Origin: an uncultured Gemmatimonadales bacterium
GTDB lineage: Bacteria; Gemmatimonadota; Gemmatimonadetes; JACCXV01; JAHWKZ01
Assembly: GCA_947259315.1 (NCBI GenBank)
Contig: CAMYLR010000009.1
Location: 5,628 to 69,627 of the forward strand
Direction: 5' to 3'
DNA: 64,000 nt
Shown here: positions 19,897-47,915 of the stretch, piece by piece
Layout: every line of letters starts with the position of its first letter
Numbering within the stretch: the stretch's first letter is position 1
Notes under the pieces: generated by a model
Seen by the model: only the letters and a program-made list of their open reading frames with translations
Databases searched by the model: none
What the model was told of the DNA's origin: nothing
Program-made: the position numbers and the translations under genes

Positions 19897-19940
19897 ATTT
19901 TGCGTTACGATGGATGAAGGCGCGGTGAGGGGATCATGAA
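19897..19940 (-). promoter_or_regulatory. TTCA-repeat promoter module 1 (M50/RND operon)
   Basis: On the minus strand TTCA starts at 19940, CTCA at 19929 and TTCA at 19918, each 11 bp apart; a weak -10-like GCAAAAT follows at 19903-19897, 15 bp after the start of the last half-site. This is the poorest -10 of the eight modules. It lies between the protease gene and the divergent two-component system, so it could also serve autoregulation. Confidence 0.55.
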
Positions 19941-19993
19941 AGGGGCTTCATGAAAGACCCGATCAGGATGTCAGCTATAGTTGGAGGGTCTGG

Positions 19994-20674
19994 ATGCGAA
20001 TTTTAGTAATCGAGGATGATAGAAAAGTCGCGGGGTTTCTCGAGAAAGGACTTAGAGAAGAAGGATACTCAGTAGATGTCGCCTTCGACGGGGACGAGGG
20101 AGAGACCAATGCTTACGTCTACGACTACGATGCGCTGGTCGTTGACGTCATGCTGCCTGGGAAGAACGGGTACGAGATTGTGCGCGGGCTACGAAAGGAA
20201 GGGAGATCAGTCCCGATACTCCTACTCACCGCCAGAGATTCGACTGAGGACGTTGTCCGCGGGTTGGATGCAGGGGCGGACGATTACTTGACCAAGCCGT
20301 TCAGCCTCGACGAGCTGTTAGCCCGAGTCCGAGCACTCGCGCGTCGAGGAGGGTCCGGCCGCCTGGACCGCCTCATATACAACGACTTGGAGTTGGACAG
20401 GATTCAGCACTTAGTCCGCCATCGCGGGGAGCTGCTGGATTTAACACCAAAAGAGTTCCAGCTACTCGAGCACTTTATGCTCCACCCGGAGGAGATCGTA
20501 CGTCGCACGGAGCTTCTTGAGAAAGTGTGGGATCTGCAGTTCGACCCAGGGTCGAACGTGGTCGACGTTCACGTCGGCAATCTGAGGCGCAAGCTTCGCG
20601 CAAAAGGAGCCGGCGGGCTCATCACAACGGTCCGCGGCGTCGGCTTTATGCTGCACGAGGGTGAGTCGGGGTGA
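19994..20674 (+). CDS. OmpR/PhoB-family response regulator (CusR-like)
   Basis: 226 residues. The receiver domain has acidic residues D8/D9, the phosphorylation site D51 in VVDVMLPGKNG and the TKPFS lysine motif. The C-terminal winged helix contains LTPKEFQLLEHFMLHP and DVHVGNLRRKL, the DNA-recognition part of this family. The histidine kinase gene overlaps it by 4 bp. Neighbouring copper genes and the 11-bp direct repeats in front of them, the spacing bound by OmpR-type dimers, make it the best candidate to read the TTCA-repeat promoters. Confidence 0.9.
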   Translation: MRILVIEDDRKVAGFLEKGLREEGYSVDVAFDGDEGETNAYVYDYDALVVDVMLPGKNGYEIVRGLRKEGRSVPILLLTARDSTEDVVRGLDAGADDYLTKPFSLDELLARVRALARRGGSGRLDRLIYNDLELDRIQHLVRHRGELLDLTPKEFQLLEHFMLHPEEIVRRTELLEKVWDLQFDPGSNVVDVHVGNLRRKLRAKGAGGLITTVRGVGFMLHEGESG

Positions 20675-22137
20675 AACGATCTTTCCGATTCCAGCTGGCG
20701 GCCCGGTTTACGGGCATGATGACAGCCGTGCTCGTCAGCGTCGCACTACTCAGCTACCTCTCCATACGTGAAACCCTAGACCGACAAATCAACGCGACAT
20801 TAGTCAACGTCGCTTCCATCCAGGCGGCATCTGTTACCGAAGCGCCAAGCGGCGAGATGAAGATCCGGGAGTGGGAAGTGACTCCATCGGAGGCAGCCTC
20901 GATCCGGGATCTCAGTCGATATACGCAGGTTTGGTCGGCCGAAGGGAGTAGCCTGTTGCGTACGCGGTACTTGACTGAGGACCTCCCGCTGGACACGACG
21001 GCGCTTCTGGCAGCTAACGGAGGAGAAACGGTGAGGGTTGGGCAGGAGTTCCAAGGAGGCCCGATCCGATCGCTCTACTACCCGCTGGGTCGCTTCGGGT
21101 CGCCTCACGAACCTCACGTTTTGCAGGTAGCCGCTCCACTGGACGCGAGGGACCGAACCCTCCGCCGTCTTGCCCTGCTGCTGTCCGTCATTACTCTGGT
21201 CACCGCGGCGGGCGCGTTCGCGGGCAGTTGGTGGCTGGCTGCAACAGCGGTTCGTCCTGTCAAGGAGATCATCGGGCAGGCAGAGGAGATAAGAGCTGGA
21301 ACGCTTGAGCGCCGTCTGACAGCCACAACCGACACCCTCGAGGCAGATCGGCTAATTCAGGTCCTGAACACGATGCTGGAGAGGCTCGACGCCGCGTTCG
21401 AGGCACAACGTCGGTTTATAGCCGATGCCAGCCACGAACTCCGGTCTCCGCTGACGGCGATGCGCGGTGAACTCGAGTTGGCCCGCCGACGCGAGCGCAA
21501 CCCCGAGGAATACCGTGACGTCATCGACAGCGCGTTGGAGGAAGTCGACCGATTATCAAGAACGACAGGAGATCTGCTCACACTCGCTCGCTCGGACGCC
21601 GGTGTCATGCAACTCCGGATCAAGCACGTGAATGTTGATCAGTGTGCGGCGCGGGTCGTGGATCGGATGCGCACTTTGGCAAATTCTCTGGGGGTAGTCA
21701 TCGCGCTGGATGCACAGGGGGGGGCACCTGTTTATGCCGACCCGGATCTGATCGAACGGCTCATCCAGAACCTTATAGAAAACGCAATCAAGTTCACACC
21801 GAAGGGTGGCTCGGTAACGGTACACGTCGATAGAAGGAACGATGACGTCGAGATCGATGTGTTGGATAGCGGGCCGGGTCTCCCATCAACCGATCTCGAG
21901 CGCATTTTTGAGCGTTTTCACCGCGTTGACGAGTCTCGAACGCGGGCCCATGACGGTTCCGGGAGTGGTCTTGGCCTCACGATCGTGCGCACGATCGCGC
22001 ATCTCCACCACGGGGATGTGAGTGCCGCAAACCGCCCGGAAGGCGGCGCACTGTTCCGTGTTCGCCTTCCAGTCACACCAGAGGCGAACCTCACTTCCCG
22101 CGGTCAAGACGAGGGCCACTCTCAGTCCACCAAATAG
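20671..22137 (+). CDS. sensor histidine kinase (CusS-like)
   Basis: 488 residues. Helix 1 (about 15-32) and helix 2 (about 166-190) flank a periplasmic sensor of about 130 residues. A HAMP region precedes the HisKA box ADASHELRSP with phospho-acceptor H255. The ATP-binding domain shows the N box LIENAIKFTPKGG and the G boxes DSGPGL and GSGLGLTIV. The GTG start overlaps the regulator stop. The gene is convergent with copA. Metal sensing is inferred from neighbours; I see no clear metal ligand cluster in the sensor domain. Confidence 0.9.
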   Translation: MKRSFRFQLAARFTGMMTAVLVSVALLSYLSIRETLDRQINATLVNVASIQAASVTEAPSGEMKIREWEVTPSEAASIRDLSRYTQVWSAEGSSLLRTRYLTEDLPLDTTALLAANGGETVRVGQEFQGGPIRSLYYPLGRFGSPHEPHVLQVAAPLDARDRTLRRLALLLSVITLVTAAGAFAGSWWLAATAVRPVKEIIGQAEEIRAGTLERRLTATTDTLEADRLIQVLNTMLERLDAAFEAQRRFIADASHELRSPLTAMRGELELARRRERNPEEYRDVIDSALEEVDRLSRTTGDLLTLARSDAGVMQLRIKHVNVDQCAARVVDRMRTLANSLGVVIALDAQGGAPVYADPDLIERLIQNLIENAIKFTPKGGSVTVHVDRRNDDVEIDVLDSGPGLPSTDLERIFERFHRVDESRTRAHDGSGSGLGLTIVRTIAHLHHGDVSAANRPEGGALFRVRLPVTPEANLTSRGQDEGHSQSTK

Positions 22138-22141: not shown

Positions 22142-22178
22142 GGGGTTCGCTTCTCTTCAAGCGCTACACTCGAACCCC
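22142..22178. terminator. hairpin between the convergent kinase and copA genes
   Basis: GGGGTTCG (22142-22149) pairs perfectly with CGAACCCC (22171-22178). The loop contains a further small stem. It sits between two convergent stop codons and overlaps the end of copA. No T-run follows on either strand, so it may act as a barrier to transcription or to 3' exonucleases rather than an intrinsic terminator. Confidence 0.4.
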
Positions 22179-24623
22179 ACGTAACCGAAGAGAATTCCCG
22201 ACCACTGAAACGGAACTGAAGCTCATCGCCGCCGCTGCGATGATCGGGCTCAGGAGGATCCCAAAGAACGGATACAAAAGTCCCGCCGCCACCGGAACCC
22301 CCAAGCTGTTGTAAACAAAGGCGAAGAACAGGTTCTGCCGGATGTTGCGCATGGTCACCCGGCTCAGGCGCGTCGCTCTGACGATGCCGCGGAGGTCACC
22401 CTTGACCAGCGTCACCCCGGAACTCTCCATCGCGACGTCGGTTCCTGTTCCCATTGCGACACCGACCTGGGCCTGCGCGAGAGCTGGGGCATCGTTGATC
22501 CCGTCGCCGGCCATGGCCACCACTCGTCCTTCGGCCTGAAGGCGCTTAACGACGTCAGCCTTTTGATCGGGAAGCACTTCGGCAACGACCTCGTCAATTC
22601 CCAGCCCTTTAGCCACCGCTTCCGCAGTTGTCCGGCTGTCGCCGGTCAGCATGGTGATTTTGACTCCTTCCCCGTGGAGGCGGCGGATCGCCTGCGGTGT
22701 CGTGTCCTTGATCGGATCGGCGACACCAACAAGCCCGGCAACGATTCCATCGGCGGAGACGTACATCACGGTCTGACCTTCGGCGCGCATCGACTCTGCT
22801 CGCTCGGCCAGAGCACCGGGGTCGATTCCGAGTTCGTCCATCAGTTTGAGGTTACCGAGAGCCACGACGCGATCTTCGATCGCTCCCTTTACTCCTTTTC
22901 CCGTTACCGACTCGAAAGACGCGGCTTCGACGAGGGACATCCCTCGGTTCGCCGCGCCTTCAACGATGGCCGCGGCCAGGGGATGCTCGCTACCTCGCTC
23001 AAGGCTCGCTGCCAAACGCAACAACTCCTGCTCGTCGAATTGCTCGGCGGGCACCACACTCATCAACTTGGGCTTGCCGAGCGTAAGGGTTCCCGTCTTA
23101 TCCACAACGAGGGTGTCCACCTTCCTTAGCACTTCGATAGCCTCGGCGTTCTTGAATAGAACCCCGAGCGTCGCACCTTTGCCGGTAGCGACCATGATTG
23201 ACATCGGCGTCGCGAGACCTAATGCGCACGGACAAGCGATGATCAAAACCGCGACGGCGTTGATTAGGCCGTACGCCAAGCGCGGCTCGGGCCCCACGAG
23301 CCCCCAGACGATGAACGTGAGCGCCGCGACCAGAACGACCACGGGAACGAAGTAGCCCGCTACGACGTCAGCGAGTTTCTGAATCGGTGCGCGGCTCCGC
23401 TGAGCCTCGGCGACCATGCGGACGATCTGCGCAAGCAGTGTGTCCGCACCGACGCGATCTGCCCGCATGGTGAGCGACCCCGTACCGTTTACCGTCGCGC
23501 CGATCAAAGCGTCGCCGGGACCTTTCTCGACTGGAATCGGCTCGCCCGAGATCATCGACTCGTCGAGCGCGCTGGTCCCTTCGAGCACCTCTCCGTCGAC
23601 GGGCACCTTCTCGCCCGGGCGGATGCGCAACCGATCACCAGGCTGCACCTGGTCGAGCGGCACGTCTTCTTCGGAGCCATCGTCTCGAAACCGGCGAGCC
23701 GTCTTCGGAGCGAGACCCAGCAGGGCCCTGATCGCGGCACCGGTCTGGCTTCGCGCTTTGAGTTCGAGAACCTGGCCGAGGAGAACGAGGGTCACGATGA
23801 CGGCCGCGGCCTCGAAGTAGACAGCCACGTCACCCTCCGGTCCCCGGAATGAGCGCGGAAAAATGTCGGGCAGAAGGGTGGCTATCACGCTGTACAGGTA
23901 GGCCACACCGACCCCGAGACCGATGAGCGTAAACATGTTCAGGTTACGAGTGACAACGGATCGCCAGCCGCGTTCGAAGAACGGCCACCCGCCCCACAAG
24001 ACGACCGGCGTCGCCAACAGGAGCTCGATCCAGGTCAGCGCTCGCGGTGAAGCCACCCGATCCAGGAAACTGACCGGTAAGAAATCGGCCATTGCGATGA
24101 CGACCAGGGGGACCGTGAGGATTGCGCTTACCCAGAAACGCCGTCTCATGTCCGCCAGCTCGGGATTCTCTTCGTCCTCCGTTACCGTCCGTGGCTCGAG
24201 GGCCATGCCGCAGATCGGGCACGAGCCTGGTTCGTCGCGGATGATCTCGGGATGCATGGGACAGGTCCACTCTGTGCGCGTCGGAGGAACCGCCGTCACT
24301 TCGGCCTCAAGAGCCATGCCACACTTGGGGCACGGGCCGGGGCCCTCTTGACGAACATCGGGGTCCATCGGGCAACTGTACGTGACGTCGGTGGAGGCGC
24401 TCGTCTCCTCGCAATGCGTTGAAGTTGCTTGCTTCGTGGTTTCTCCTCCGACAAAACCCTGTGGAGACTGACGAAACTTGGACTGGCAATGAGAGCTGCA
24501 GAATGTATAAACCGCACCATCGTGAGTTTCTTGAAGCTCCCCGTCCGGATCCACGGTCATCCCGCAGACGGGATCAATAACCCTCGTACCGACTTCTGGC
24601 TTCCCGGATGTCCTACTCACCAT
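22164..24623 (-). CDS. copA: copper-transporting P1B-type ATPase with YHS and HMBD metal domains
   Basis: About 819 residues. Three start codons are in tandem (ATG 24626, ATG 24623, GTG 24620) behind AGGAGG at 24627-24632; spacing favours the latter two. The order is a YHS domain (DPVCGM), two heavy-metal-binding modules (YSCPMDPDV with CPKCGMAL, and CPMHPEI with CPICGMAL), eight membrane helices with the metal-site motif CPC in [11 protein letters not shown], phosphorylation motif DKTGTLT, HPLA in the nucleotide domain and [10 protein letters not shown]. It exports Cu(I) or Ag(I) from the cytoplasm. It is last in the Spy-YHS-YHS-patatin operon. Confidence 0.92.
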
Positions 24624-24634
24624 CATCCTCCTGT

Positions 24635-25621
24635 TTATGTCTCGTGCCGACGCCCCTTCGCTGACCCGTTTCCAGTCGGACTGTATGTCTCTTCTCGTCG
24701 TTGATATCGAGCGCGTCCGGATGGCAAACACTGGCGAGCTACCTGGTTGCGCCTGAGCACCTGCGTGATCCGTCCGCGGTTGGCCCGAACCACGCGCACA
24801 CCAGCCGCGACGCACTCCCGTCGAGCGTCGAGATCGAAAGTGTCGATGATTCGACCGAACTCCGGTCTGAGCACGAGGTCGGCTTCCTCAAAGCGCAGCT
24901 TCGCATGGTGCCGATAACATATCTCCGTTGCACGCACCAGAGCCCGCCACCCATTCGTGATGTCGCGCGCAGTCCCGAACTGACTCGGATCTACAACAAC
25001 CACGGGACATCCAAAGCCTCGCGCCACGTCGATCGGGGCGACATCCACGTACGCGCCGTCCGCGAGAAGAGCACTTCCCCTCTCCAGCGGAGCCGCCACG
25101 CCGGCGAGAGCGGAGCTGGCATAAACTGCCCTAGCCGCGTTACCCGACCGCAAAATGACGCGCTCCCCGGTGAAGAGGTCCGTTGTGCCGATGGCGATCT
25201 GGACCCGGCCATCTTCCAGATTCTTGCCCGCCGTGAGCACTTCGAGAAGATCCAAGGCTCTCTCAGACGCCGTGGCTCCACGTCCCCACTCGAGAATCAG
25301 ATCGTGCACCGCCCGCAGATGACCCCAAAGGACCCGCACCTTCTGAACCGGGCTCGCTGTGGCGTCGAGTCGAGAGAGGGGGCCCGGAAACTTGCTCGTG
25401 TCCATGTCCAGGAGGGTGTCGTACCAGTTCTCGCGAAGCGCATACGTTGCTGCGACGACAGCCCCCATTGACACGCCCACCACGGCGCTGGGGCTAGATC
25501 CCTGCGTTTCCAGCGCGCGCAGCACTCCGACATGCGCGAAGCCGCGGGCCCCACCACCTGCGAGCACCAGTGTGAAAGATTCACGGCCGGGTCGGGCGAA
25601 ACGCGCTTGGTGATCGATCAC
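24635..25621 (-). CDS. patatin-like phospholipase/esterase (RssA type)
   Basis: 328 residues. The oxyanion-hole motif [16 protein letters not shown], the nucleophile elbow GVSMG and the second catalytic motif ADGAYVD form the Ser-Asp dyad of bacterial patatin-like hydrolases. The last 35 residues are basic and variable. It lies between a YHS gene (4-bp overlap) and copA, an unusual place for a lipid hydrolase. A role in membrane-lipid turnover under metal stress is speculative. Confidence 0.85.
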
Positions 25622-26156: not shown

Positions 26157-26783
26157 TCAGTGCTCGTGCTGTTCACCTTGCAGAGCCGAATCGCCTGGCG
26201 TACTCATGCCATCCGGCGTCATCATCCGACACCCTTCGCCGGCCCTCATCATCATGCGTTGCCGGGTGACGCGCATTCCATAGTGAAGGTTCGAGCGCTG
26301 CTCGGCGTTCAGGACCTCTAAGGCCTGTTGGCCTGCCCGGGCCATCGAGACCTGCATCTGGACATGGCGGTTGGCTGCCGCGTTCAGAGCGGACTCGTAG
26401 CTGGAGAAATCTGGCTGCTCTCCCTCGAGCGCTTCTTTCGCCCGTTCGTGCAGGGAACGCATTTCGCTCATGATCGACTCGTGGGTCGCAGTCGTTTCCT
26501 TCTTGATGGCCTCGATCTGTTCCATTTGGTCGTCGGTGAGTCTCAACGCATCCCTCTGGTGAAGGATCATGGACGGATTCGGTCCAACCATCATCATCCC
26601 CATCATTCCACCGCCGGACTTCATCATCTCCTCCATCATTCTGCTGCCCGGAGCCATACCAGGCATTTCCACCGGTGGCTGGGCGGGTTCTCCGTCGGGG
26701 TGATGTTCCTGCCCCCAAACGAGCGGGGGGCCGACGAGAAGGGCCGCCAGCAGCAAGGAGCACAGGATCGTATCGCGTTTCAT
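26157..26783 (-). CDS. Met/His-rich Spy/CpxP-like periplasmic protein
   Basis: 208 residues with a signal peptide (to about VWGQE). A Met-rich segment at about 43-66 contains MMEEMMKSGGGMMGMMM, a pattern known from copper/silver-binding proteins. The middle has the Spy-like DALRLTDDQMEQIEAIKK helix, and the C-terminus is again Met/His-rich. It likely binds Cu(I)/Ag(I) or acts as a periplasmic chaperone/sensor. It is the first gene of the operon towards copA, under promoter module 2. Confidence 0.8.
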   Translation of the reverse strand: MKRDTILCSLLLAALLVGPPLVWGQEHHPDGEPAQPPVEMPGMAPGSRMMEEMMKSGGGMMGMMMVGPNPSMILHQRDALRLTDDQMEQIEAIKKETTATHESIMSEMRSLHERAKEALEGEQPDFSSYESALNAAANRHVQMQVSMARAGQQALEVLNAEQRSNLHYGMRVTRQRMMMRAGEGCRMMTPDGMSTPGDSALQGEQHEH

Positions 26784-26857: not shown

Positions 26858-26901
26858 AGAATATCCGCGGCCGCATGAAGCGGGTCTGAGATCGGCATGA
26901 A
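26858..26901 (-). promoter_or_regulatory. TTCA-repeat promoter module 2 (Spy-YHS-patatin-CopA operon)
   Basis: On the minus strand TTCA starts at 26901, CTCA at 26890 and TTCA at 26879, with ATATTCT at 26864-26858. The 11-bp periods and the 15-bp distance to the -10 are exact. Transcription would start near 26850 and run into the Spy-like gene at 26783. Confidence 0.7.
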
Positions 26902-26951
26902 GAAACGTTAGCTAAAGGATCCAAGCCAGCCGTCCTAGGCCGGTCAAGCGC

Positions 26952-27006
26952 TTGAAGGCGTCTTCATGCACATCTCACTTTCCCTTCAGAGGTTCCGGAC
27001 TACCCT
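26952..27006 (+). promoter_or_regulatory. TTCA-repeat promoter module 3 (TolC-CusBA operon)
   Basis: TTGA (26952), TTCA (26963), CTCA (26974) and TTCA (26985) are spaced by 11 bp, followed by CTACCCT at 27000-27006. It lies back to back with module 2 in the same intergenic region, so both copper operons would respond together. No -35 hexamer is recognisable, as expected for an activator-dependent promoter. Confidence 0.75.
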
Positions 27007-27073: not shown

Positions 27074-28393
27074 ATGAGCTCAGCACTCGGTGGCGCGGTC
27101 CATCCCGCCTTTGTTCTACTCTGCTGCACGATTCTCCTCCCCATAGGCTCCCAACCGGTGCGGGCACAATCGGACGGGTTGACGCTGGCGGAAGTATACG
27201 AGCTTGCCCGCGAACAAAATCCGCTTATCGCGGCCGCCAGCGCCCTCGCCGACGCCTCGGAAACGATGGAGCGATCGGCAGGATTGCCACCCGACCCCGT
27301 CTTCCAGATCGGAGCCACCAACCTCCGCTTGCCTGAGTTCTCGGCGGATATGCCTAACTCGATGGCGCCAGCGATGATGCTTATGCAGACGGTTCCGTTC
27401 CCGGGCAAGCTGTCCCTGGGTCGCCGGATCGCCGGCCAGTCGACCGCCATTGCCGAAGCGGATGCTATGGAAACCTGGTGGGAGGTGCGGGCTGCAGTGG
27501 CAAAGTCGTTCTACGATGTCTACGCGGCGGATCGCCAGCTCGAGGTAATGCGGAATACGCTGAGGCTCCTCGAGGACTTCGAACGCGTCGCCCGGGCGAT
27601 GTACGACGCTGGTTCAGGTCGTCAGAGCGACGTGCTGCGAGCCAACGTCGAGGTGGCCCGGATGGATTCCGAGATCGCCCGCATGGTGGCGATGCGAGAG
27701 GTCGGGGCGTCACGACTCAATGCGCTGTTGAATAGACCGGCGGACACGCCCGTTCCCTCTCCCGTCCTGCCGGAGCTGCCGCGCGACACACCCGATGCAC
27801 TCACCCTCAGGGCATGGGCGGAGGATACGCGGCCGATGCTCGAGGCGGGGCGGACGGGGGTGGATCGAGCCGAGACGCGACGAAACCTAGCGGGGAAAGA
27901 GATCTGGCCAGACTTCGCGATCGGCCTTCAGTACGGCCAGCGCGAGAGGGATACGGGAGGAACCGCGCGGATGGGGGGCGTCTTGGTTGGGATCAACGTG
28001 CCGATTTTCGCCAGCGCTAGGCAACTTCGATTGCGCGATGAGGCGGCCGCGATGCAGAACATGGCCGAAGCCCAGTTGACAGACATGCGCGCTCAGGTGG
28101 ACGCGATGATCGGAGTGCTATTGGCCGACCTAGCACGAGCCCGGACACTCATCTCGCTTTACCGACAAGAGATTCTTCCACAGGCCAAAGCCAACGTCGA
28201 GTCCTCGTTCTCGTCCTATCGGGTCGGCAGCGTGGACTTTCTGACGCTGGTCGATGCGCAGCTGATCTTGGACCGCTACGAAGAGGAATACTACGAACTG
28301 CTTGCGGAGTACGGCTCTGACATCTCCGAGCTGGAGATGACGATCGGCCGCGAGCTGCCCATGACCCGAGAGCTACTCGCGGAGGTTCAATGA
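27074..28393 (+). CDS. TolC-family outer-membrane efflux channel (CusC-like)
   Basis: 439 residues with a signal peptide ending PVRAQ. Two repeats of long helices and short strands are seen, starting LTLAEVYELAREQNPLI and ending with YRVGSVDFLTLVDAQL, the classic C-terminal repeat of outer-membrane efflux proteins. A Met-rich stretch (MAPAMMLMQTVPFPG) would suit Cu/Ag. It overlaps the adaptor gene by 4 bp and should form the outer tunnel of the CusCBA pump. Confidence 0.88.
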   Translation: MSSALGGAVHPAFVLLCCTILLPIGSQPVRAQSDGLTLAEVYELAREQNPLIAAASALADASETMERSAGLPPDPVFQIGATNLRLPEFSADMPNSMAPAMMLMQTVPFPGKLSLGRRIAGQSTAIAEADAMETWWEVRAAVAKSFYDVYAADRQLEVMRNTLRLLEDFERVARAMYDAGSGRQSDVLRANVEVARMDSEIARMVAMREVGASRLNALLNRPADTPVPSPVLPELPRDTPDALTLRAWAEDTRPMLEAGRTGVDRAETRRNLAGKEIWPDFAIGLQYGQRERDTGGTARMGGVLVGINVPIFASARQLRLRDEAAAMQNMAEAQLTDMRAQVDAMIGVLLADLARARTLISLYRQEILPQAKANVESSFSSYRVGSVDFLTLVDAQLILDRYEEEYYELLAEYGSDISELEMTIGRELPMTRELLAEVQ

Positions 28394-29628: not shown

Positions 29629-29631
29629 CCG

Positions 29632-33773: not shown

Positions 33774-33800
33774 ACTCACGACTTGGAATCATTGGAGAAA

Positions 33801-33835: not shown

Positions 33836-33872
33836 GTTGCTGGTTCCGGACGCGGCTAATCAAAGGAATTCA

Positions 33873-37701: not shown

Positions 37702-38327
37702 CGGGCGCACCGCGCCTCGTCGTCGTCGACTATGGCGCGGGAAACCTCCGCAGTCTCGGTGGCGCGCTCGACCGAATCGACGCCAACTGGCGGTTCGCGA
37801 GGGAGCCGTCTGATCTCGACGCGGCCGACGGGATCGTATTGCCGGGAGTAGGCTCGGCTGCACCCGCCATGCGCGTACTGCGATCGCGTGGTCTTGATCG
37901 CGCGATCGTCGGGAGCCATGCTCCCCTACTCGGGATCTGCCTCGGCATGCAGATCCTTTGCGAGCGATTGACAGAGGACGAGCCCGTCACCGGACTGGGC
38001 ATCGTTCCAGGCTCGGTCGAGTCACTCCCCGACACTGTCAAGCGGCCACATATGGGCTGGAACCGAGTGATACTCACTGCACCTGTCCGGACCGAGGCAA
38101 GGGGCATCGAGCGAGCGCTCGAAGATTGGTTCTACTTCGCCCACTCGTATGCCGTCCGTTGTTCGTCTCGCCACGTGGTCGCGACCACATCGTACGGTGG
38201 CATGGTCCCCGCCACCATCACGACCGGCCGCGCTTGGGGCGTCCAGTTCCATCCCGAAAAGTCGGACCGTGCCGGCCTCGCGCTGCTGGCCGCATTCCGA
38301 GACTTCTGCCGAGGAGCGAAAGCATGA
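37698..38327 (+). CDS. hisH: imidazole glycerol phosphate synthase, glutaminase subunit
   Basis: 209 residues. A class-I glutamine amidotransferase with the oxyanion strand PGVGS, nucleophile Cys in GICLGMQ, and His-x-Glu in VQFHPEKSD. It supplies ammonia to HisF. Start and stop overlap hisCB and hisA by 4 bp each. Confidence 0.95.
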   Translation: MTGAPRLVVVDYGAGNLRSLGGALDRIDANWRFAREPSDLDAADGIVLPGVGSAAPAMRVLRSRGLDRAIVGSHAPLLGICLGMQILCERLTEDEPVTGLGIVPGSVESLPDTVKRPHMGWNRVILTAPVRTEARGIERALEDWFYFAHSYAVRCSSRHVVATTSYGGMVPATITTGRAWGVQFHPEKSDRAGLALLAAFRDFCRGAKA

Positions 38328-39840: not shown

Positions 39841-40487
39841 CACGCCTCGAGGCTCCTGGCTGGCCGTCGACAGCGGATCCCTCTGCACTCCTCCCGGCGA
39901 TCGTCCAGGACGCCGACACTGGCGCCGTTCGAATGCTGGCGTGGGTCAACGCCGATGCCTACCGTCGGATGGTGATGACCGGCCGCGCGACGTTCTTTAG
40001 TCGCTCGCGCTATCTAGTGTGGGAGAAGGGCGAGACAAGCGGGAACACGTTGCTGGTCACCTCCCTCGCGTGGGATTGCGACCGGGACGCACTCCTGGTA
40101 AAGGCGCGAGCGGTTGGGCCGACATGTCACACAGGAGACGAGACGTGCTGGGGAAGCCTCTACGATCCGACCTGGATCGGCACTCTCGCCAGGCTGACAG
40201 CAACGATCGAGGCTCGTGATCGCGAGCGACCAGAGGGGTCGTACACCGCCCGACTGCTCAGCGACGGCGTATCGCAGTGTGCTGCCAAGGTCGTCGAGGA
40301 GGCAGGCGAGGCGGCGGTCGCCGCCCTCACAGAGGGTGCCGACCGATTCGCCGAAGAGGCCGCCGATCTTTGGTACCATCTCCTAGTGCTCGCGCGCGCT
40401 GTCGGCGTCGAGCCAACGGAGATCGCCCACCGGCTCGCCGTCCGCGGTAACCCTCAAGACTGGCGGCTTGATGGCGATCGATCGTGA
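39837..40487 (+). CDS. hisI: bifunctional phosphoribosyl-AMP cyclohydrolase / phosphoribosyl-ATP pyrophosphatase
   Basis: 216 residues from ATG 39837 (ATGA overlap with hisF). The HisI part has MLAWVNADAY, VWEKGETSGN and the zinc region DCDRDALLVKARAVGPTCHTG (in part). The HisE part, from about residue 120, carries KVVEEAGEAAVAAL with the catalytic acidic residues. It does steps two and three of histidine synthesis. It is the last gene of the operon; a separate promoter module starts 54 bp downstream. Confidence 0.95.
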   Translation: MTRLEAPGWPSTADPSALLPAIVQDADTGAVRMLAWVNADAYRRMVMTGRATFFSRSRYLVWEKGETSGNTLLVTSLAWDCDRDALLVKARAVGPTCHTGDETCWGSLYDPTWIGTLARLTATIEARDRERPEGSYTARLLSDGVSQCAAKVVEEAGEAAVAALTEGADRFAEEAADLWYHLLVLARAVGVEPTEIAHRLAVRGNPQDWRLDGDRS

Positions 40488-40540
40488 CGAGCTGCTCCTG
40501 GTACCCGACGACCCATAGCCGCCCTAACTGTCAACATTTC

Positions 40541-40584
40541 TTCATTCTGGCTTCAGCCCCCTTTCACAGGGCGCCACTTACGCT
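40541..40584 (+). promoter_or_regulatory. TTCA-repeat promoter module 4 (flavoprotein remnant / HMA / methyltransferase)
   Basis: TTCA starts at 40541, 40552 and 40563, all perfect and 11 bp apart, followed by TTACGCT at 40578-40584. The predicted transcript starts near 40591 and reaches the ATG at 40601, which is why that start is preferred over the GTG at 40484 that overlaps hisI. Confidence 0.72.
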
Positions 40585-40600: not shown

Positions 40601-41068
40601 ATGGAATCACGCGATAACGGCTCGCGTCCCAGGGGCCAGCGTTCCGCAGCGACTCCCCCCATGAGTCGCAGCTGGGACTTCATCGTAGGAGGCGCCGGGC
40701 CGGCCGGGAGCCGAGCGGCCGAGCTGCTGGCTCGGCGAGGCATCTCGGTGCTGCTGCTCGATCCCAAGGCTCCCTGGGAGAAGCCCTGCGGGGGAGGCCT
40801 GACTGCCGCTGCCCTGCGAAACACGCCGGTGCTCCGGGAGTTGCAAGCAGAGACGGAGACAATCTCGGAAGTCTTGGTGGTCGCCATCCGTGCCGGCCGC
40901 GTTCTACGCGTCTCGCTCCCGCCTGTAGGAAGCGCGCCCCGGCCGCCTGGGCTCGCTCGAGGCCCCAGCGGGACAGCCTCAGACGGCTCAGCGTCTCGAA
41001 CGGGTTACGGAGCGGGATTACCACACTCACCCCGCCCAGGGGCGCGGTTCTCCTGGGGTCACTGCTAG
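40601..41068 (+). pseudogene. N-terminal remnant of a geranylgeranyl-reductase-family flavoprotein
   Basis: From ATG 40601 the first 110 codons encode an FAD-binding fold: DFIVGGAGPAGSRAAELLARRG, cited in part, then LLLDPKAPWEKPCGGGLTAAAL, the family's Cys-Gly-Gly signature. After RVLRVSLPP (about 40925) the frame turns into Arg/Pro/Ser-rich nonsense and stops at 41068. No continuation is found in the other plus frames up to 41205. Family members are 380-420 residues. The intact promoter upstream suggests the inactivation is recent or the transcript is kept for the genes downstream. Confidence 0.7.
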
Positions 41069-41205
41069 ACGCGGCGAACGAGCACCGGTCACTGGGCGGT
41101 GCCGTGATACGCGGTCTGATCTCGCGGGCTCCGGCGAGACTTCCCTCACACCCTGATTGTGACTGCCCGTCGGATGTCGTAGCCGCGAGCCGCTAAGAGG
41201 AAACG

Positions 41206-41748
41206 ATGCCCAAGTCAACGAATCTCTCAGCCGCGCCAGCAACATCGATGAACGGTGTCGCAGGGTCCTGCTGTGAGAGCGACCGAGTGGTGGCATGGGG
41301 CGAGCCACAGGTCGTCGAACTCTCTCTTGCAGGAGCGTCGGGCTCCAAGGAGTCACCGCGGCTGGCCGAGAGAATCGAGCACCTTCCCGGCGTGCTCCGG
41401 GCCTTGGCAAACCCGATCACTGAGCACGCTGTGATTGAGTTCGATCCGCGAGTTACGCGATTGGATGCCATCGTCCATACCTTGGAGTCCTCGGGTTTGA
41501 AGTTGGACCACACCGTTTTCCGCTGGTACCTCCGTATGCCGGGAGTCGCGTGCGCCGCATGCGTCCATCGGATCGAGGAGGCGATCGACCGTGTGCCCGG
41601 CGTCTTGGGCACGACCGCAAACCCCAAGCTGCAGAGGATCGTGGTGGAGTATGCGCCCAGGCACATCGACTTTGGCGGGTTGCGCCGGGTACTGGAGAGC
41701 CTCGATACCCACTCAGGCGGTTGTTGCAAGCGCGCCAAGGAGCGTTAG
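41206..41748 (+). CDS. tandem heavy-metal-associated (HMA) domain protein
   Basis: 180 residues. The second half is an HMA domain with the metal motif ACAACVHRIEEAIDRVPGV. The first half (about 32-98) has the same fold outline (EHLPGVLRALANPITEHAVIEF is the clearest stretch, quoted in part) but no CxxC. A Cys pair near the N-terminus (SCCES) and one at the C-terminus (GGCCKR) could also bind metal. It is probably a cytoplasmic Cu(I) chaperone or regulator. It lies in the transcript of promoter module 4. Confidence 0.75.
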   Translation: MPKSTNLSAAPATSMNGVAGSCCESDRVVAWGEPQVVELSLAGASGSKESPRLAERIEHLPGVLRALANPITEHAVIEFDPRVTRLDAIVHTLESSGLKLDHTVFRWYLRMPGVACAACVHRIEEAIDRVPGVLGTTANPKLQRIVVEYAPRHIDFGGLRRVLESLDTHSGGCCKRAKER

Positions 41749-41838
41749 CGACTGCCACGCACCTTTGTGTGCATCAACCGGGGCGCGGAGCACAAGCGGT
41801 TGGACCAGCGTGACGAGCGGCTGAGGGAGGAGCACCCA

Positions 41839-42528
41839 ATGAATCCTGCAACGACAACCGGCTTTTGGCAGCTCACGGTCATCATGGTGGTGATCGCCTC
41901 GTGGCTTCTCTATCGCTACGTGGCGCCCAGCGGGTGGAGGGAGTGGAGCCGGGCAGGGCTCGTCCAGGCGTTCATAATCGCTCTCTACGCCGAGATGTAT
42001 GGCTTCCCGCTCACCATCTATCTCTTGAGTGGATTCCTGGGTTTTGACATCCCCTGGCTTCACCAAAGCGGTCATCTCTGGGCGACTCTTCTGGGATGGG
42101 GCGCTCTTGGCGCGATGATTGAGATGGTCGTCGGCTATGCCTTTGTCTTCTTCGGTATCTCGGTGTTGATCGAGGGGTGGCGCGAGGTCTACCAAGCGAG
42201 TCGTGAGGGACGCATGGCCAGCGAGCGCCTCTACGGGGTGGTTCGGCACCCGCAGTACACGGGGATTTTCCTGGCGATCTTCGGGCAGCTCATCCACTGG
42301 CCGACGATCCCTACACTGGTCTTGTTCCCAGCGATTATCTGGGCGTACCACCGTCTAGCGAAGCGCGAAGAGGCTCAGATGGTCAACCGATTTGGAGAGG
42401 TATACCTCGATTACCGTCGCCACGTCCCCATGTTCTTTCCACGTCGCGGAGAGTGGCGGCGGCTGCTCGACGCGACACGTCCGCAGACAGTTGGGGACGA
42501 AACGATACTGTCCAAGAACTCTGGGTGA
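41839..42528 (+). CDS. isoprenylcysteine-methyltransferase-like integral membrane protein
   Basis: 229 residues from ATG 41839 with GGGAGGAG upstream. Several hydrophobic helices are followed by the ICMT/PEMT signature GVVRHPQYTGIFLAIFG and a conserved tail with REEAQMVNRFGEVYLDYRRHVP. Bacterial members are SAM-dependent methyltransferases of mostly unknown substrates (lipids, thiols). Many sit in metal-resistance loci, as here beside the HMA protein. Confidence 0.8.
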   Translation: MNPATTTGFWQLTVIMVVIASWLLYRYVAPSGWREWSRAGLVQAFIIALYAEMYGFPLTIYLLSGFLGFDIPWLHQSGHLWATLLGWGALGAMIEMVVGYAFVFFGISVLIEGWREVYQASREGRMASERLYGVVRHPQYTGIFLAIFGQLIHWPTIPTLVLFPAIIWAYHRLAKREEAQMVNRFGEVYLDYRRHVPMFFPRRGEWRRLLDATRPQTVGDETILSKNSG

Positions 42529-42553
42529 TCACCTGAGCGGCTCTAAAGAAACC

Positions 42554-42597
42554 TTCAGTTGTATCTCACCCTCGGTTAAGGAGCCTTGGGCTACCGT
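42554..42597 (+). promoter_or_regulatory. TTCA-repeat promoter module 5 (Rieske gene)
   Basis: TTCA (42554), CTCA (42565) and TTAA (42576) are spaced by 11 bp, followed by CTACCGT at 42591-42597. The sequence from 42547 to 42580 closely resembles module 8. Predicted start is near 42604 and the Rieske ATG is at 42633. Confidence 0.72.
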
Positions 42598-42632: not shown

Positions 42633-43094
42633 ATGATCGCGGCGAAAACCGAAAAGAGTGGAGCATCCACTCGCAGAAGGTTTATCAGCTGGTTGCTCGG
42701 CACCAGCTTGAGCGCGCTCGTGCTGGCGGTGTTCTACCCCGTCGCGCGTTATATCACTCCGCCAGCGACGGCCGAGCCGGCAACGGCTACCGTCACGCCT
42801 CCGCTCAGACCGGACGAGTTACTGCCGAACTCGGGCCAGATCTTCAAGTTCGGAAGCCAGCCCGGGATCCTGATCCGAACCCCGGCTGGCGAGCTCCGAG
42901 CGTTCACCGCGATCTGTACACACCTTGGTTGCACCGTACAATATCGGCCGGATCTCGGTCATATCTGGTGCGCATGTCACAACGGTCACTTCGACTTAAA
43001 CGGCATCAACATTGCGGGTCCGCCCCCCCGCCCCTTGGAGCCGTACGTCGTCAATGTCCGAGGCGACCAGATCGTGGTTAGTAAGGAGGCGTGA
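42633..43094 (+). CDS. Tat-exported, membrane-anchored Rieske [2Fe-2S] protein
   Basis: 153 residues. A twin-arginine-like signal (TRRRFISWLLG) and one helix precede the Rieske domain. Box 1 is CTHLGC (C95, H97, C100) and box 2 CACHNGHF (C113, C115, H116). C95/H97/C113/H116 bind the cluster, and C100-C115 can form the disulphide typical of the high-potential bc1/b6f type. No cytochrome b is adjacent; the one at 12195 could be its partner. It is expressed from its own promoter module. Confidence 0.9.
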   Translation: MIAAKTEKSGASTRRRFISWLLGTSLSALVLAVFYPVARYITPPATAEPATATVTPPLRPDELLPNSGQIFKFGSQPGILIRTPAGELRAFTAICTHLGCTVQYRPDLGHIWCACHNGHFDLNGINIAGPPPRPLEPYVVNVRGDQIVVSKEA

Positions 43095-43174: not shown

Positions 43175-43867
43175 CTAGACCGGCCGTCTCCAAGTAAAGT
43201 GGTCGTAGACGCCAGACCAGTACATGCCAAAGGCGACCGCGAAGGCTAACTCCTCGATCGGGATCGGGCCGATCAGCACTCCCGAGAGCGCGCCCAGGTT
43301 CCAGACGCGCTCCACGTAACCCGGCGAGAGCCACTCGAGGCCGATCACGAAGGCAGCGTAGTAAGCCAAGAATAGAGCACCTCCTACCCACGTCTTCGTC
43401 TTAAGGTCAGGTCGGCAGAGCACAGTGGCGACGGCGCCGACTATCATGGCGGTAATACCCGGATAGATGGGATTGACCGGTAGAAAGAAGAGAACGGGGA
43501 AGACGACAAATGGGGCCACGAGGGCCTTATGGTGATGCCGATGCAGAGGTAGGGCACGCTCCCCATCGGGAAGTGGCATAAGCCTCGCGCCTGTCAGCAC
43601 GTTATAAAGCACGGCACCCACGCCACCAATACCAAAGCAGAACACAAGACTCTCGAGGTCGAAGCCGGTCGTGCGTGCCAGATTGAACAAGCTTGGCGGA
43701 TTCCAGTACTCCGGAACGAACAGCGGTTCGGTGAGACCAAAGGGCGTCGTGAAGACGCTCGCCCACACCATCACGCGGCGGTGCGCCGGAAACCCGACCC
43801 ACAGCACAACCCAAGGGATCAGGAACGCCGCCGCCCACGCAAACCAAACATACTGCTCGTCGATCAT
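43175..43867 (-). CDS. lycopene-cyclase-domain (CrtYcd/CarR-like) membrane protein
   Basis: 230 residues with six or seven helices. Two copies of the short lycopene-cyclase domain are seen, with conserved phrases FVPEYWNPPSLF and IGPIPIEELAFAVAFGMYWSG. The PEYW and PxEE motifs are those of heterodimeric-type cyclases. No phytoene synthase or desaturase gene is in the window, so it may cyclise a carotenoid made elsewhere or be a diverged relative. It is last in the minus-strand group led by the His-rich microprotein. Confidence 0.75.
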   Translation of the reverse strand: MIDEQYVWFAWAAAFLIPWVVLWVGFPAHRRVMVWASVFTTPFGLTEPLFVPEYWNPPSLFNLARTTGFDLESLVFCFGIGGVGAVLYNVLTGARLMPLPDGERALPLHRHHHKALVAPFVVFPVLFFLPVNPIYPGITAMIVGAVATVLCRPDLKTKTWVGGALFLAYYAAFVIGLEWLSPGYVERVWNLGALSGVLIGPIPIEELAFAVAFGMYWSGVYDHFTWRRPV

Positions 43868-44037: not shown

Positions 44038-44616
44038 TCATATCTGGCTCAAGAGCCCGCCGAAGCCCATAAAGGCTAAAGAGAGAATCCCAGCGATGAT
44101 GAACACGAGGGCGGCTCCCTTTGCAATCTCCGGGACTGAGGAGAACTCGATCTGCTCCCGGAGTGCCGCCATGAGGACCAGCGTCAGGGTGAGTCCTGCT
44201 CCGGCACCCAGAGCGAAAGAGAGGCCCTCGAGAAAGTTGTAGCCGCGATTGGTCTGGAATATTGCAAGGTACAGGATCGCGCAGTTCGTGGTAATCAGCG
44301 GCAGGAACATGCCGAATTCGCGGAAGAGCTTTGGGCTCAGCTTCCTAATCGCCATCTCGACGACCTGTACCACCGAGGCGATCACAACGATGAAAGAAAT
44401 GAGCCGCAGGTGTGGGGCAAAGCCCAGGATGAACGTGTTCAGAATCCAGGTGAAGACGGCTGTTACGACCAGCACAAATATGTCTGCTGCTCCCATACGC
44501 AGCGCCGTCGAAACACGCGCCGAGACACCCATGAATGGGCAGAGGCCTAGAAAGTAGAACAGCGTGAAATTGTTCACGACCATTGCGGAGATGAAAATCC
44601 AGACGAGGGTGTCCAT
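44038..44616 (-). CDS. rnfA: RnfA-like membrane subunit (Rnf/Nqr family)
   Basis: 192 residues from ATG 44616 (a GTG lies one codon earlier). Six helices; the family cysteines are C26 in LGLCPFMG and C112 in TTNCAILY. In Rnf/Nqr complexes RnfA and RnfE form a pseudo-symmetric pair holding one [2Fe-2S] cluster in the membrane between these cysteines. The start overlaps the rnfE stop by one base (TGATG). RnfB, C, D and G are absent from the window. Confidence 0.88.
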   Translation of the reverse strand: MDTLVWIFISAMVVNNFTLFYFLGLCPFMGVSARVSTALRMGAADIFVLVVTAVFTWILNTFILGFAPHLRLISFIVVIASVVQVVEMAIRKLSPKLFREFGMFLPLITTNCAILYLAIFQTNRGYNFLEGLSFALGAGAGLTLTLVLMAALREQIEFSSVPEIAKGAALVFIIAGILSLAFMGFGGLLSQI

Positions 44617-45236
44617 CACGTCACCTTCTGAGGGTCGAGCGCCAGAGACCGCTTCATCACTCTGCTCGAACGGTGATGGCGATAGGAAGCGAAACCGAGA
44701 AGGATGAACCCGATCGTGAAGAATCCCCCCGGGGGTAGCGACATGATCACCCAGGGCTCAAAAGAAGGGCCGAACACGTTTACTCCCAGGAGGGCGCCAC
44801 TTCCTAACAATTCCCGGATTCCCCCCATCATCAGAAGCGCTATGACGAAGCCGAAGCCCGTTCCTGCCGCATCAACAACAGCCCGACCAACCGGTTGTCT
44901 GGATGCGAAGGCCTCCTGCCGACTGAGAATCATGCAGTTAACGACGATTAGATAGATGTAGGCCCCCAGCGCCTTGTGGATATCGGGGACGACCGCCGCC
45001 ATCACCATCTCGACGATGGTCACGAATGTGGCGATGATTAAGACGTAGCTCGCGATTCTCACCTCGTGTGGAATGATGCGTTTGAATACCGATACGAGAA
45101 GGCTCGAGCTGATAAGCACGAAGAAGGTGGCGATGCCCATCGCCAGGCTGTTGGCGACCGTGCTGGTCACAGCCAGGGCGGGGCATAGACCTAATGCCTG
45201 ACGAAAGACGGGATTCTCCCGCCAAACTCCCCGCAT
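44616..45236 (-). CDS. rnfE: RnfE-like membrane subunit (Rnf/Nqr family)
   Basis: From ATG 45236 the protein is 206 residues and begins MRGVWRENPVFRQALGLCP, the usual RnfE start; an upstream ATG at 45341 would add 35 unconserved residues. The cluster cysteines are C18 in GLCPALAV and C101 in VVNCMILSR. The last 40 residues include GGFFTIGFILLGFASY. Together with RnfA it would form the intramembrane iron-sulphur pair without the other Rnf subunits. Confidence 0.88.
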   Translation of the reverse strand: MRGVWRENPVFRQALGLCPALAVTSTVANSLAMGIATFFVLISSSLLVSVFKRIIPHEVRIASYVLIIATFVTIVEMVMAAVVPDIHKALGAYIYLIVVNCMILSRQEAFASRQPVGRAVVDAAGTGFGFVIALLMMGGIRELLGSGALLGVNVFGPSFEPWVIMSLPPGGFFTIGFILLGFASYRHHRSSRVMKRSLALDPQKVT

Positions 45237-45442
45237 GAGGTCGTCCTGAAGGGAACTACTTGCACTCCCAATCGAAGCGGCCCCTGCGTGACCGCAGTGA
45301 GACCCTCTGATTATATCTTCGGAGGTCGCTCGCCTTCTCATGACAGACCCACCCTCTCACGCTTCTTGCCTTTGCGTGTGCGTGGAGAACGTCACAACCG
45401 GATTCGGGCACGCGTGAGCTGGGACGTGGCGGGACCCTCCTG

Positions 45443-45706
45443 CTAGGCGGACGAGACCCATCGCTTCGCGAGCTGGTTGTGGATCGGCACGAAAACGAGG
45501 CCGGCGTACGCTCCGTAGAGAAACGACTCCACCAGCCCGATCAGAAAGCCCAACGGCGTGAGCCACTCGAAGCCTGGAAGGACAGCCTCCAGAAACCCCG
45601 TCATGTGGAGCCCCTCCGGGACGACGAGACCGTATAACACGCACACCAGAAACGTGACCGCGCCAAAGAGCGCTAGCGACCACGTAACGACTTTAACGCT
45701 CAACAC
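45443..45706 (-). CDS. DUF5676-like small membrane protein
   Basis: 87 residues from GTG 45706, chosen because AGGAGG (45712-45717) lies 5 bp upstream; a TTG at 45703 is also possible. The longer open frame to 45781 overlaps the His-rich gene in another frame. Two helices flank an amphipathic loop: SLALFGAVTFLVCVLYGLVV and FLIGLVESFLYGAYAGLVF. The pattern resembles DUF5676, a family often linked with copper/CopZ loci. It overlaps the His-rich gene by 14 bp. Confidence 0.7.
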   Translation of the reverse strand: MLSVKVVTWSLALFGAVTFLVCVLYGLVVPEGLHMTGFLEAVLPGFEWLTPLGFLIGLVESFLYGAYAGLVFVPIHNQLAKRWVSSA

Positions 45707-45866
45707 CTTTTCCTCCTCCCTCGCCCGTCGGGGAGTCGTCGTGCCCGTGACCCGGTCCGCCGTGTCCGTGTCCGCAACCACCGTGACCGCCGTGCATTCT
45801 TGTGTGCATCAACAAGAACACCACCGCGATCACGATCCAGAACCAATTCTCGAGCAACCAGTCCAC
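45693..45866 (-). CDS. 57-residue membrane microprotein with a His/Gly-rich tail
   Basis: From GTG 45866, with GGGAGC upstream, the frame encodes one Trp-rich helix (WLLENWFWIVIAVVFLLMH) and then a tail with eight His in 22 residues (MHGGHGGCGHGHGGPGHGHD), ending at TAA 45693. It is the first gene behind promoter module 6 (predicted transcript start near 45907) and overlaps the DUF5676 gene. The helix-plus-His layout is that of small metal-binding proteins in copper islands. It is too short for standard ORF lists. Confidence 0.7.
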   Translation of the reverse strand: MDWLLENWFWIVIAVVFLLMHTRMHGGHGGCGHGHGGPGHGHDDSPTGEGGGKGVER

Positions 45867-45913: not shown

Positions 45914-45957
45914 AGGGTAGAACGGGGCTTGTGAACCGGGTGTGAAGGCGCGATGAA
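45914..45957 (-). promoter_or_regulatory. TTCA-repeat promoter module 6 (His-rich/DUF5676/RnfEA/lycopene-cyclase group)
   Basis: On the minus strand TTCA starts at 45957, 45946 and 45935 and CTACCCT occupies 45920-45914: three perfect half-sites, 11-bp periods and the 15-bp step to the -10. It is the cleanest copy. All five genes down to 43175 lie on the same strand without another clear promoter, so one transcript is plausible. Confidence 0.78.
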
Positions 45958-46032
45958 GGATTCTTAACCGGCTGCTGCTGCGCGACACGAGCGACATCCT
46001 CTCTCGCTCCCTAGAGCGACATAAAAGACATC

Positions 46033-46076
46033 TTCATTCAAGGTTCACGCCGCCTTCAGAAACTCGCGCTTACACT
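46033..46076 (+). promoter_or_regulatory. TTCA-repeat promoter module 7 (DUF1573/CcdA-like genes)
   Basis: TTCA starts at 46033, 46044 and 46055, with TTACACT at 46070-46076. It stands back to back with module 6, the two being 75 bp apart. The rest of the gap 45867-46244 holds a short out-of-frame ATG reading frame (46097-46195) with a good GGGAGG, and no other gene. Confidence 0.75.
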
Positions 46077-46244: not shown

Positions 46245-46610
46245 TTGATCCTGGCGGTTGCCTGCAGCCCAGCGACTCCTGTGATCGACATAGAGACTAC
46301 CGCGATTGAACTTGGCGAGATCGACCCGCAACCCGTTGAGACAACGGTCGGTGTATCCAACGTCGGTCGTGGTACGCTCCACATCCTCGCCACTCCCACG
46401 TCCTGTGGTTGCACCCGTGCGTGGGTTGCGGACTCGGTGCTGGCGCCGGGAGCCAGCACCATCCTGACTATCCGCTACGACCCGACAACGATGAGCCCTC
46501 CAGATACAGGACCGATACACCGAGGCGTTTACGTCCGAAGCGACGATCCTGAGCGTCTCGAGGTCGAGATCCATTTGCAAGCCGTCGTTTTGCCCTCCGG
46601 TAGACTATGA
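46245..46610 (+). CDS. DUF1573 lipoprotein, start uncertain
   Basis: 121 codons from TTG 46245. The domain contains the DUF1573 hallmark TSCGCTRAWV after IELGEIDPQPVETTVGVSN. The signal LIGL-type sequence with lipobox LAVAC begins before the TTG: the upstream in-frame codons (FRNWTLGGLAG) complete a good signal peptide, yet no ATG, GTG or TTG precedes them. A strong RBS and ATG exist at 46097 in another frame. A frameshift, a rare start codon or a sequencing error is possible. DUF1573 proteins are periplasmic beta-sandwiches of unknown role, often near cytochrome c maturation genes. Confidence 0.7.
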   Translation: MILAVACSPATPVIDIETTAIELGEIDPQPVETTVGVSNVGRGTLHILATPTSCGCTRAWVADSVLAPGASTILTIRYDPTTMSPPDTGPIHRGVYVRSDDPERLEVEIHLQAVVLPSGRL

Positions 46611-47809
46611 TCGCCACTTTAGTGCTTTCGGCGGTCCTCGCGTCAAGTACGCAAGCGGCGCAAGACTCGGCGCTTGTCTACTACAACGAGGCCTGTCGAG
46701 ACTGTGTGCAATACGTTCAGAGCCAACTTCGCCCCCTGCTCGCCGAGTTGGGTGTCGAGCCGGTTCGTGTACGAGATTATCTCAACGAACCTGGTGCTCG
46801 CCGCGAACTCTTCCAACGCAGTCGCGAAGAGGGTGTTCCGCTCTCGGTTCAAGGGCACCTCACCGTCTTCATCTCCAAGGATGTGATCCTTGAGGGTCAC
46901 GTCCCCGCCGCTCTCATCCGGGAGGTGTTGAACCCCGCGCTCAGATCGCGCTACGAGAAGATCGCCGTCCACCAAGACGCAATGCCGGAGATGGGACAAC
47001 CGGTCACGCATTACAAGGTGTGGTCGCCGGGTCGGCCCGTGGTGACGTATGAGATAGGTGCTCCAGTCGTCCGCTACCTGGAAGAACACGCGCCTGCTAC
47101 CGGTTGGGAGACTGAGATCTCGTCTGGTACCGATTTTCGCGCTCTTCTTCCCACCGTATTGGCCACAGGGTTGGCCGATGGCCTGAACCCCTGCGCATTT
47201 GCGGTACTGATTCTGTTCCTCGGGGTCATGTTCACCTTGCGCCGCACGCGCGCATCGATCCTGGCGGTGGGCGGGATCTTCATCGGCATGGTCTACGTTG
47301 CTTATTTGGGAATCGGGCTGGGCCTGCTCCGTGCGTTGACCTTATTCGAGAGTCCGCATTTTCTGGCCCAGGCGGGAGCATGGCTGGCGATCGCGTTGGG
47401 GCTGATCAACATCAAGGATGCCTTCCGGCCAGGTTGGGGTTTCTCGCTTCGGATCCCCGCGGCGGGACACCGTGCCATTAGGCGGTGGCTGGAGAAAGGA
47501 ACGCTCACGGCTACAGCAGTTGGGGGTTTCCTTGTCGGCCTTTGCACCTTCCCATGCTCGGGCGGGATCTATGTAGCAATCCTCGGGCTACTCGCGGTCG
47601 AGACGACCTACGCCCAGGGACTCGGCTATCTGCTGGCGTACAACGTTGCTTTCGTTGTTCCGCTGCTCGTCATACTCGGCTTTGTATCGGATCGGCGTAC
47701 AATGGGCGCGCTGGGTCGCTGGGAGGCACGCAACCTCAGGGCGTTCAAGGGACTGACCGGACTCGTCATCGTCGCACTAGGCGTGGGAATTCTGCTTTGG
47801 CTGGGCTGA
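46607..47809 (+). CDS. CcdA/DsbD-type thiol-disulphide membrane protein with N-terminal thioredoxin-like domain
   Basis: 400 residues. After a signal peptide, a domain of about 160 residues starts ALVYYNEACRDCVQYV, a thioredoxin-like CxxC. The membrane domain, from about 175, has GLADGLNPCAFAVLILFL and FLVGLCTFPCSGG, the paired Cys helices of CcdA/DsbD. It should pass reducing equivalents from cytoplasmic thioredoxin to periplasmic targets. It overlaps the DUF1573 gene by 4 bp; the DUF1573 protein with its conserved cysteines is a possible partner. Confidence 0.85.
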   Translation: MIATLVLSAVLASSTQAAQDSALVYYNEACRDCVQYVQSQLRPLLAELGVEPVRVRDYLNEPGARRELFQRSREEGVPLSVQGHLTVFISKDVILEGHVPAALIREVLNPALRSRYEKIAVHQDAMPEMGQPVTHYKVWSPGRPVVTYEIGAPVVRYLEEHAPATGWETEISSGTDFRALLPTVLATGLADGLNPCAFAVLILFLGVMFTLRRTRASILAVGGIFIGMVYVAYLGIGLGLLRALTLFESPHFLAQAGAWLAIALGLINIKDAFRPGWGFSLRIPAAGHRAIRRWLEKGTLTATAVGGFLVGLCTFPCSGGIYVAILGLLAVETTYAQGLGYLLAYNVAFVVPLLVILGFVSDRRTMGALGRWEARNLRAFKGLTGLVIVALGVGILLWLG

Positions 47810-47860
47810 GAGGGCCTCGCCAAGCCGTGTCCCTACGTTGCAGGCCGGATGTGAGGGATG

Positions 47861-47915
47861 TTGAAGAAACCTTCAGTTGTGCTTCACGCTCGGTTAACGG
47901 GCGTGCGCGCATCCT
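47861..47915 (+). promoter_or_regulatory. TTCA-repeat promoter module 8 (second DUF1573 gene)
   Basis: TTGA (47861), TTCA (47872), TTCA (47883) and TTAA (47894) run at 11-bp steps; the -10-like GCATCCT is at 47909-47915. It is near identical to module 5 over the central 28 bp. Transcription would start near 47922, ahead of the ATG at 47989. Confidence 0.7.

Follow-up and report, generated by a model that had tools for sequence, protein, structure and literature searches.

The window analyzed here, a whole stretch of 64,000 nucleotides of contig CAMYLR010000009.1 from an uncultured Gemmatimonadales bacterium, contains eight copies of a promoter element between positions 19897 and 47915. These eight sites are very probably regulator boxes, each with a −10 element, from which the OmpR-family response regulator encoded at 19994–20674 (+) activates transcription, as judged from sequence comparison. 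They appear to represent a real and sharply defined copper regulon, which combines a known promoter layout with a new half-site. The main interest lies in the covariation of a recognition-helix residue with a half-site letter, and in the iron–sulfur (Fe-S) proteins among the genes behind the boxes.

Anatomy of the boxes

The original prediction described triple repeats at 19940 (−), 26901 (−), 26963 (+), 40541 (+), 42554 (+), 45957 (−), 46033 (+), and 47872 (+), and proposed a matrix scan of the genome and its relatives. All eight sites were confirmed at these positions and strands, with the half-sites TTCA, CTCA or TTCA, and TTCA or TTAA in exact 11-bp steps. Within the window, the triple pattern gave eight matches with a period of 11 and none with the remaining periods between 6 and 23. 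Throughout the genome (2,400,729 bases in 33 contigs), the only matches were these eight places, and the reversed control gave 0. A model trained only on the sequences of these sites recovered all eight (E 1e-5 to 3e-9), and the next-best match had E=0.04; an iteratively trained matrix was kept out of the significance estimates because it trains on itself. The predicted fixed distance between the last half-site and the −10 element also held: A at +39 and T at +43 were each present in 8/8 window sites and in ~95% of 73 boxes of relatives, although the −10 at 19940 (−) is poor.

The description as a triple repeat was correct for the three direct half-sites but overlooked an inverted one upstream. 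An element TnAAG/C stands just before the first TTCA; across the eight window sites, positions −8 and −7 are always A and position −10 is mostly T. In the 73 boxes of relatives, its consensus is TGAAG (T 95%, G 73%, A 100%, A 97%, G 75%), which is the reverse complement of the adjoining CTTCA, that is, an inverted half-site. In four relatives, divergent promoter pairs have one common palindrome, from which the direct repeats extend outward both ways. Because of this consensus and these divergent promoters, the unit is one inverted and three direct half-sites, followed by 12 bp and TAnnnT; the full box is TGAAG-N4-CTTCA-N6-TTCA-N7-TTCA-N12-TAnnnT. The alternative of a fourth direct half-site was dropped after the relatives showed TGAAG. 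The spacer letters vary from site to site among the eight.

The last half-site begins 16 bp 5′ of TAnnnT, and no −35 consensus was seen between them. This arrangement, a presumed activator site over the −35 region beside an otherwise good −10, is that of a class II promoter. Since the eight promoters are exclusive to one 28-kb copper-resistance island, they provide a clean test bed.

The regulator and its link to the boxes

The presumed box reader (19994–20674, +; Asp51, Asn196) carries a receiver domain (PF00072) and a winged-helix Trans_reg_C domain (PF00486), which place it in the OmpR/PhoB family. A CusS-like sensor histidine kinase is encoded next to it (20671–22137, +). The best subfamily was TIGR01387, under its curated cut-off (219.6 vs 279.2 bits), and the score against the CusR equivalog was likewise under the cut-off (199.9 vs 420). 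In the tree, the regulator falls in a separate class-specific clade (100/98), outside the CusR/CopR/SilR/HprR clade (100/99). It would work like CusR, yet we do not file it as a CusR because of this tree position. No close named relative was found: a single scan of genome contigs gave homologs of ≤51% identity, and plasmids gave <53%. We also observed, in another genome of the class (G032, L050), a regulator inside the true CusR clade; both lineages are thus represented in the class.

Among 295 genomes of the same class, the ortholog (E≤1e-70) was present in 73 and the box (E≤0.02) in 49, and 43 of the 49 box genomes have the ortholog (Fisher p=1.7e-25, a value that overstates independence since the genomes are related, although several families are involved). 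The six box genomes without the ortholog agree with a chance expectation of 5.9 over the 295 genomes. In G049, G020, G035, G226, G172, G182, G218, G191, and others, a box lies immediately 5′ of the regulator gene. The proposal of a class II OmpR-family activator, most likely the product of 19994–20674, is thus favored by genome exclusivity, class-wide co-occurrence, and the conserved spacing between box and −10.

Several observations weigh against this reading. The upstream half-site is degenerate in 5/8 window sites, with TGAAG kept in 3/8. The site at 19940 (−) has the weakest promoter (−10 CAAAAT; 1.3 bits leave-one-out), and its predicted transcription start coincides with the annotated ATG. 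Under strict filters, 30 of the 73 ortholog genomes have no box at E≤0.02. Finally, the regulator gene itself has no box of its own in the window. This last point, together with at least 11 other OmpR-family homologs in the genome, could suggest that another regulator of the family reads the boxes and that the adjacent one co-occurs with them merely through sharing the island. We consider this quite improbable: each of these homologs is ≤41% identical to the regulator, box presence tracks the ortholog of 19994–20674 across the 295 genomes, the ortholog gene itself frequently has a box before it, and the half-site letter changes with the helix residue of the ortholog, as described below.

The degenerate upstream elements could instead mean that the operator consists of the three direct half-sites alone, as in the PmrA/QseB type, with TnAAG no more than an A-rich or degenerate remnant; in favor of this, TTAAG is similar to the PmrA half-site CTTAAG (PMC3973317), and His and Asn in the recognition helix are PmrA-like. 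Such an operator is unlikely in view of the inverted TGAAG in the boxes of relatives (73–100% per letter) and the palindrome common to divergent promoters. Moreover, an inverted element occupies the same position in the boxes of CusR, AgrR, and LciR, and the AA is invariant in all window sites. That the repeats arose by chance, or are not promoter elements but a repeat family multiplied by duplication, has a negligible probability. Nothing was found in favor of this reading, and it is refuted by the single period, the lack of further matches in 2.4 Mb or in the controls, and the conservation of the box across families; the differing spacer letters also speak against it.

For activation by the product of 19994–20674, the following mechanism can be proposed. 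At high copper (or silver), the neighboring CusS-like kinase would switch on the regulator, presumably by phosphorylation. One dimer of the regulator would most likely occupy the inverted pair upstream, and another the two downstream direct half-sites, where it would cover the −35 region and touch RNA polymerase (class II activation). The output would be copper efflux (CusCBA, CopA) together with envelope metal-binding and redox proteins.

Half-site letter and recognition helix

The regulators of the class mostly read [ST]NVVDVHx[GAS][NH]LR in the recognition helix, and CusR, SilR, and CopR read VAx[KR]RLR. The last differing residue is Asn196 here, which corresponds to Asn196 of PmrA and to Arg201 of PhoB; the latter contacts a guanine (PMC3973317). 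Five genomes of the class (G059, G171, G177, G156, and G178) have Arg at this position. Near these Arg-type regulators, the second half-site reads G in 6/6 boxes (≤1 mismatch), whereas in the Asn/His group it reads T in 52/58 and G in 1/58 (p=9e-8), the scan pattern having left the tested base free. CusR-type boxes outside the class have G in 6/6. The half-sites TGTCA and TGTAA were not seen in the window, where, as in the class, the half-site is CTTCA; TGTCA or CGTCA accompanied only Arg-type regulators.

These results indicate that T versus G in the half-site covaries with Asn/His versus Arg at one helix residue, which is new; the comparison covers only five Arg-type genomes, three of them in one genus, and other residues differ as well. 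The presence of Asn196 where CusR and PhoB have Arg would account for the change from G to T in the half-site. Because residue and letter change together within one class, the specificity determinant would be testable by a single substitution. Tentatively, and with somewhat less than even confidence, we propose that the position equivalent to Asn196 is a natural specificity switch within a fixed layout (Arg for GTCA, Asn/His for TTCA), and that the regulon supplies replacements for copper-sensitive [2Fe-2S] membrane subunits (RnfE-RnfA, Rieske).

Comparison with known systems

The original prediction set the site apart from the palindromic CusR box. The half-site letters do differ (CTTCA vs TGTCA), but the layout does not: a search with TGA-N8-TCA-N8-TCA-N8-TCA-N12-TAnnnT matched the Escherichia coli cusC promoter with 0/15 mismatches and nothing else with ≤3 mismatches in that 8-kb region. 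The cusC promoter reads TGACA-N4-TGTCA-N6-TGTCA-N6-aaTCA, with TAAAGT at the same place, and the window box at 26953–27006 (+) also has 0 mismatches to the CusR-type layout. The layout recurs at silC and silE of plasmid SilR (1 mismatch each), at promoters of the P. fluorescens copR region (1 and 2), and in Moraxella (1). In 80 named regulator loci of other clades, it gave 4 matches vs 0–2 in shuffles, among which only Sphingomonas (1 mismatch) and Limnobacter are plausible. A letter-agnostic scan of the 80 loci and the CusR-type loci gave 6 matches vs a shuffled mean of ~1, and 4 of the 6 were at CusR-clade promoters.

The system thus shares with CusR/SilR the four-part layout, the position of TAnnnT, and the CusCBA cargo, and its regulator is 45% identical to CusR. 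It differs in the half-site, in the helix (HVGN, not AVKR), in its clade, and in having many more targets, all in one island. The inverted pair of the CusR/CopR/LciR type (TGA-N8-TCA skeleton) occurs in the class, with three of the eight window sites retaining TGAAG, and it is followed by two further direct half-sites at 11-bp steps and a fixed −10. On this comparison, the promoter layout is already known and the half-site letters are new, so the difference of the box from that of CusR is limited to the letters. Our analysis would extend the CusR/LciR-type copper promoter to a class far from Proteobacteria (16S ~80–84% identical to named records).

The cre-tag of CreB is TTCAC-N6-TTCAC. Its TTCA direct repeats with an 11-bp period resemble the boxes, which serves as a lead only, but the regulator here is 35% identical to CreB and distant from it in the tree. 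The PmrA box, CTTAAG-N5-nTTAAT (PMC3973317), shares the CTTnA half-site, the 11-bp period, and the Asn at the PhoB Arg201 position; however, it has two direct half-sites and no inverted element, and the regulator here belongs to a different clade. The inverted element and the tree rule out filing the box as a CreB or PmrA type. In Legionella, copper induction by LciR requires an inverted repeat and two short elements before the −10, which orient activation (PMC6989116). The LciR box is alike in these elements and in being exclusive to an island, and it differs in its half-sites (ATTACAA/TTGTAAT) and single target (PMC6989116). AgrR of Cupriavidus metallidurans, apparently a type II activator, uses a 6-4-6 inverted repeat with in-phase direct repeats (PMC7380067), a likeness limited by its half-site, ATTACA, and by a direct repeat present at some operators only (PMC7380067). 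For both LciR and AgrR, mutation showed that the inverted and direct elements are required (PMC6989116, PMC7380067).

Genes behind the boxes and the copper signal

The box at 19897–19950 (−) (TGAAG TTTCA CCTCA CTTCA, weak −10 CAAAAT) precedes a unit of an M50 peptidase and an HAE3-type MMPL transporter (16147–19889, −). That at 26858–26911 (−) (CTAAC CTTCA TCTCA CTTCA, TATTCT) precedes genes for a Spy-like LTXXQ metal-binding protein (26157–26783, −), a patatin-like protein, and the Cu(I) P-type ATPase YHS-CopA (22164–24815, −), whose true start is probably downstream of the listed GTG. The box at 26953–27006 (+) (TGAAG CTTCA TCTCA CTTCA, TACCCT) precedes the Cu/Ag RND efflux genes cusC-cusB-cusA (27074–32997, +). 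CopA carries CPC and MSFSS motifs, and CusA carries the motif GAMIDAAIVMIEN; these motifs mark Cu(I)/Ag(I) transport.

Two units open differently from the list of target genes in the original prediction. Behind the box at 40531–40584 (+) (TACGCT), a truncated FAD-oxidoreductase remnant comes first, and the HMA protein and ICMT-like methyltransferase genes are next (40601–42528, +). This FAD-dependent (geranylgeranyl-reductase-like) oxidoreductase (40601–41068, +) seems truncated, with ~780 bp less to the next gene than in the island of G027. The unit behind 45914–45967 (−) (TACCCT) opens with small genes for a His-rich DUF2933-like protein (45693–45866) and a DUF5676-like protein (45443–45706), followed by RnfE (44616–45341) and RnfA (44038–44619), spanning 44038–45866 (−). 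The other boxes lie before a Rieske [2Fe-2S] protein (42544–42597, +, TACCGT; gene 42633–43094, +), before a DUF1573 protein and a CcdA/DsbD-like protein (46023–46076, +, TACACT), and before a second DUF1573 protein with its ATG at 47989 (47862–47915, +, CATCCT); the last three genes span 46245–48528 (+).

In relatives, the genes behind the boxes encode multicopper oxidase (4 genomes tested), CopC, CusC, CopA, Spy-like (LTXXQ), and DUF5676 proteins. A syntenic island that matches this one, again with eight boxes, occurs in G027, which belongs to another family; the boxes there lie before Rieske, ICMT, and lycopene cyclase genes, before Spy-CopA-RnfE-RnfA, and before the FAD-oxidoreductase region, among other targets. 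The signal is likely copper because copper genes (CusCBA, CopA, multicopper oxidase, CopC) lie behind the boxes. By gene content, the predicted metal/redox regulon is thus narrowed to a likely copper (or silver) regulon.

The spare RnfE-RnfA pair

A full rnf operon is present elsewhere in the genome (G000:C31, ~37–41 kb, L229), besides the island RnfE-RnfA pair (44038–45341, −). The island RnfE and RnfA are ~70–73% identical to the pair of the rnf operon, and the four cysteines (GLCP, NC) that should bind the shared [2Fe-2S] cluster are conserved in them. The duplication is also seen in G027 and in G234, in the latter with a box immediately 5′ of rnfE; G063 has a single pair. The rnf-operon pairs of three genomes group together and the island pairs stay outside the group; the island pair therefore looks like a recurrent spare set. 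It may replace the rnf-operon pair under copper stress. The membership of a spare RnfE-RnfA pair in such a regulon is new. With the Rieske protein and the duplicated Rnf pair both under likely copper control, the regulon would point to replacement of Fe-S membrane parts in copper stress.

Other features of the island

A complete-looking histidine biosynthesis operon (33783–40487, +) lies inside the copper island without its own box; it includes fused aminotransferase-IGPD and PRA-CH/PRA-PH genes. Directly 3′ of cusA is a gene for a P-II-like signaling protein (32994–33335, +), with homologs in the box regions of three relatives. In G020, a strong box (43 bits; L176:8758–10588) lies before a gene resembling those of type II secretion ATPases, which is unexpected as the target of a copper regulator. 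The island also contains a lycopene-cyclase-like gene (43175–43867, −), whose homolog in G027 sits directly behind a box.

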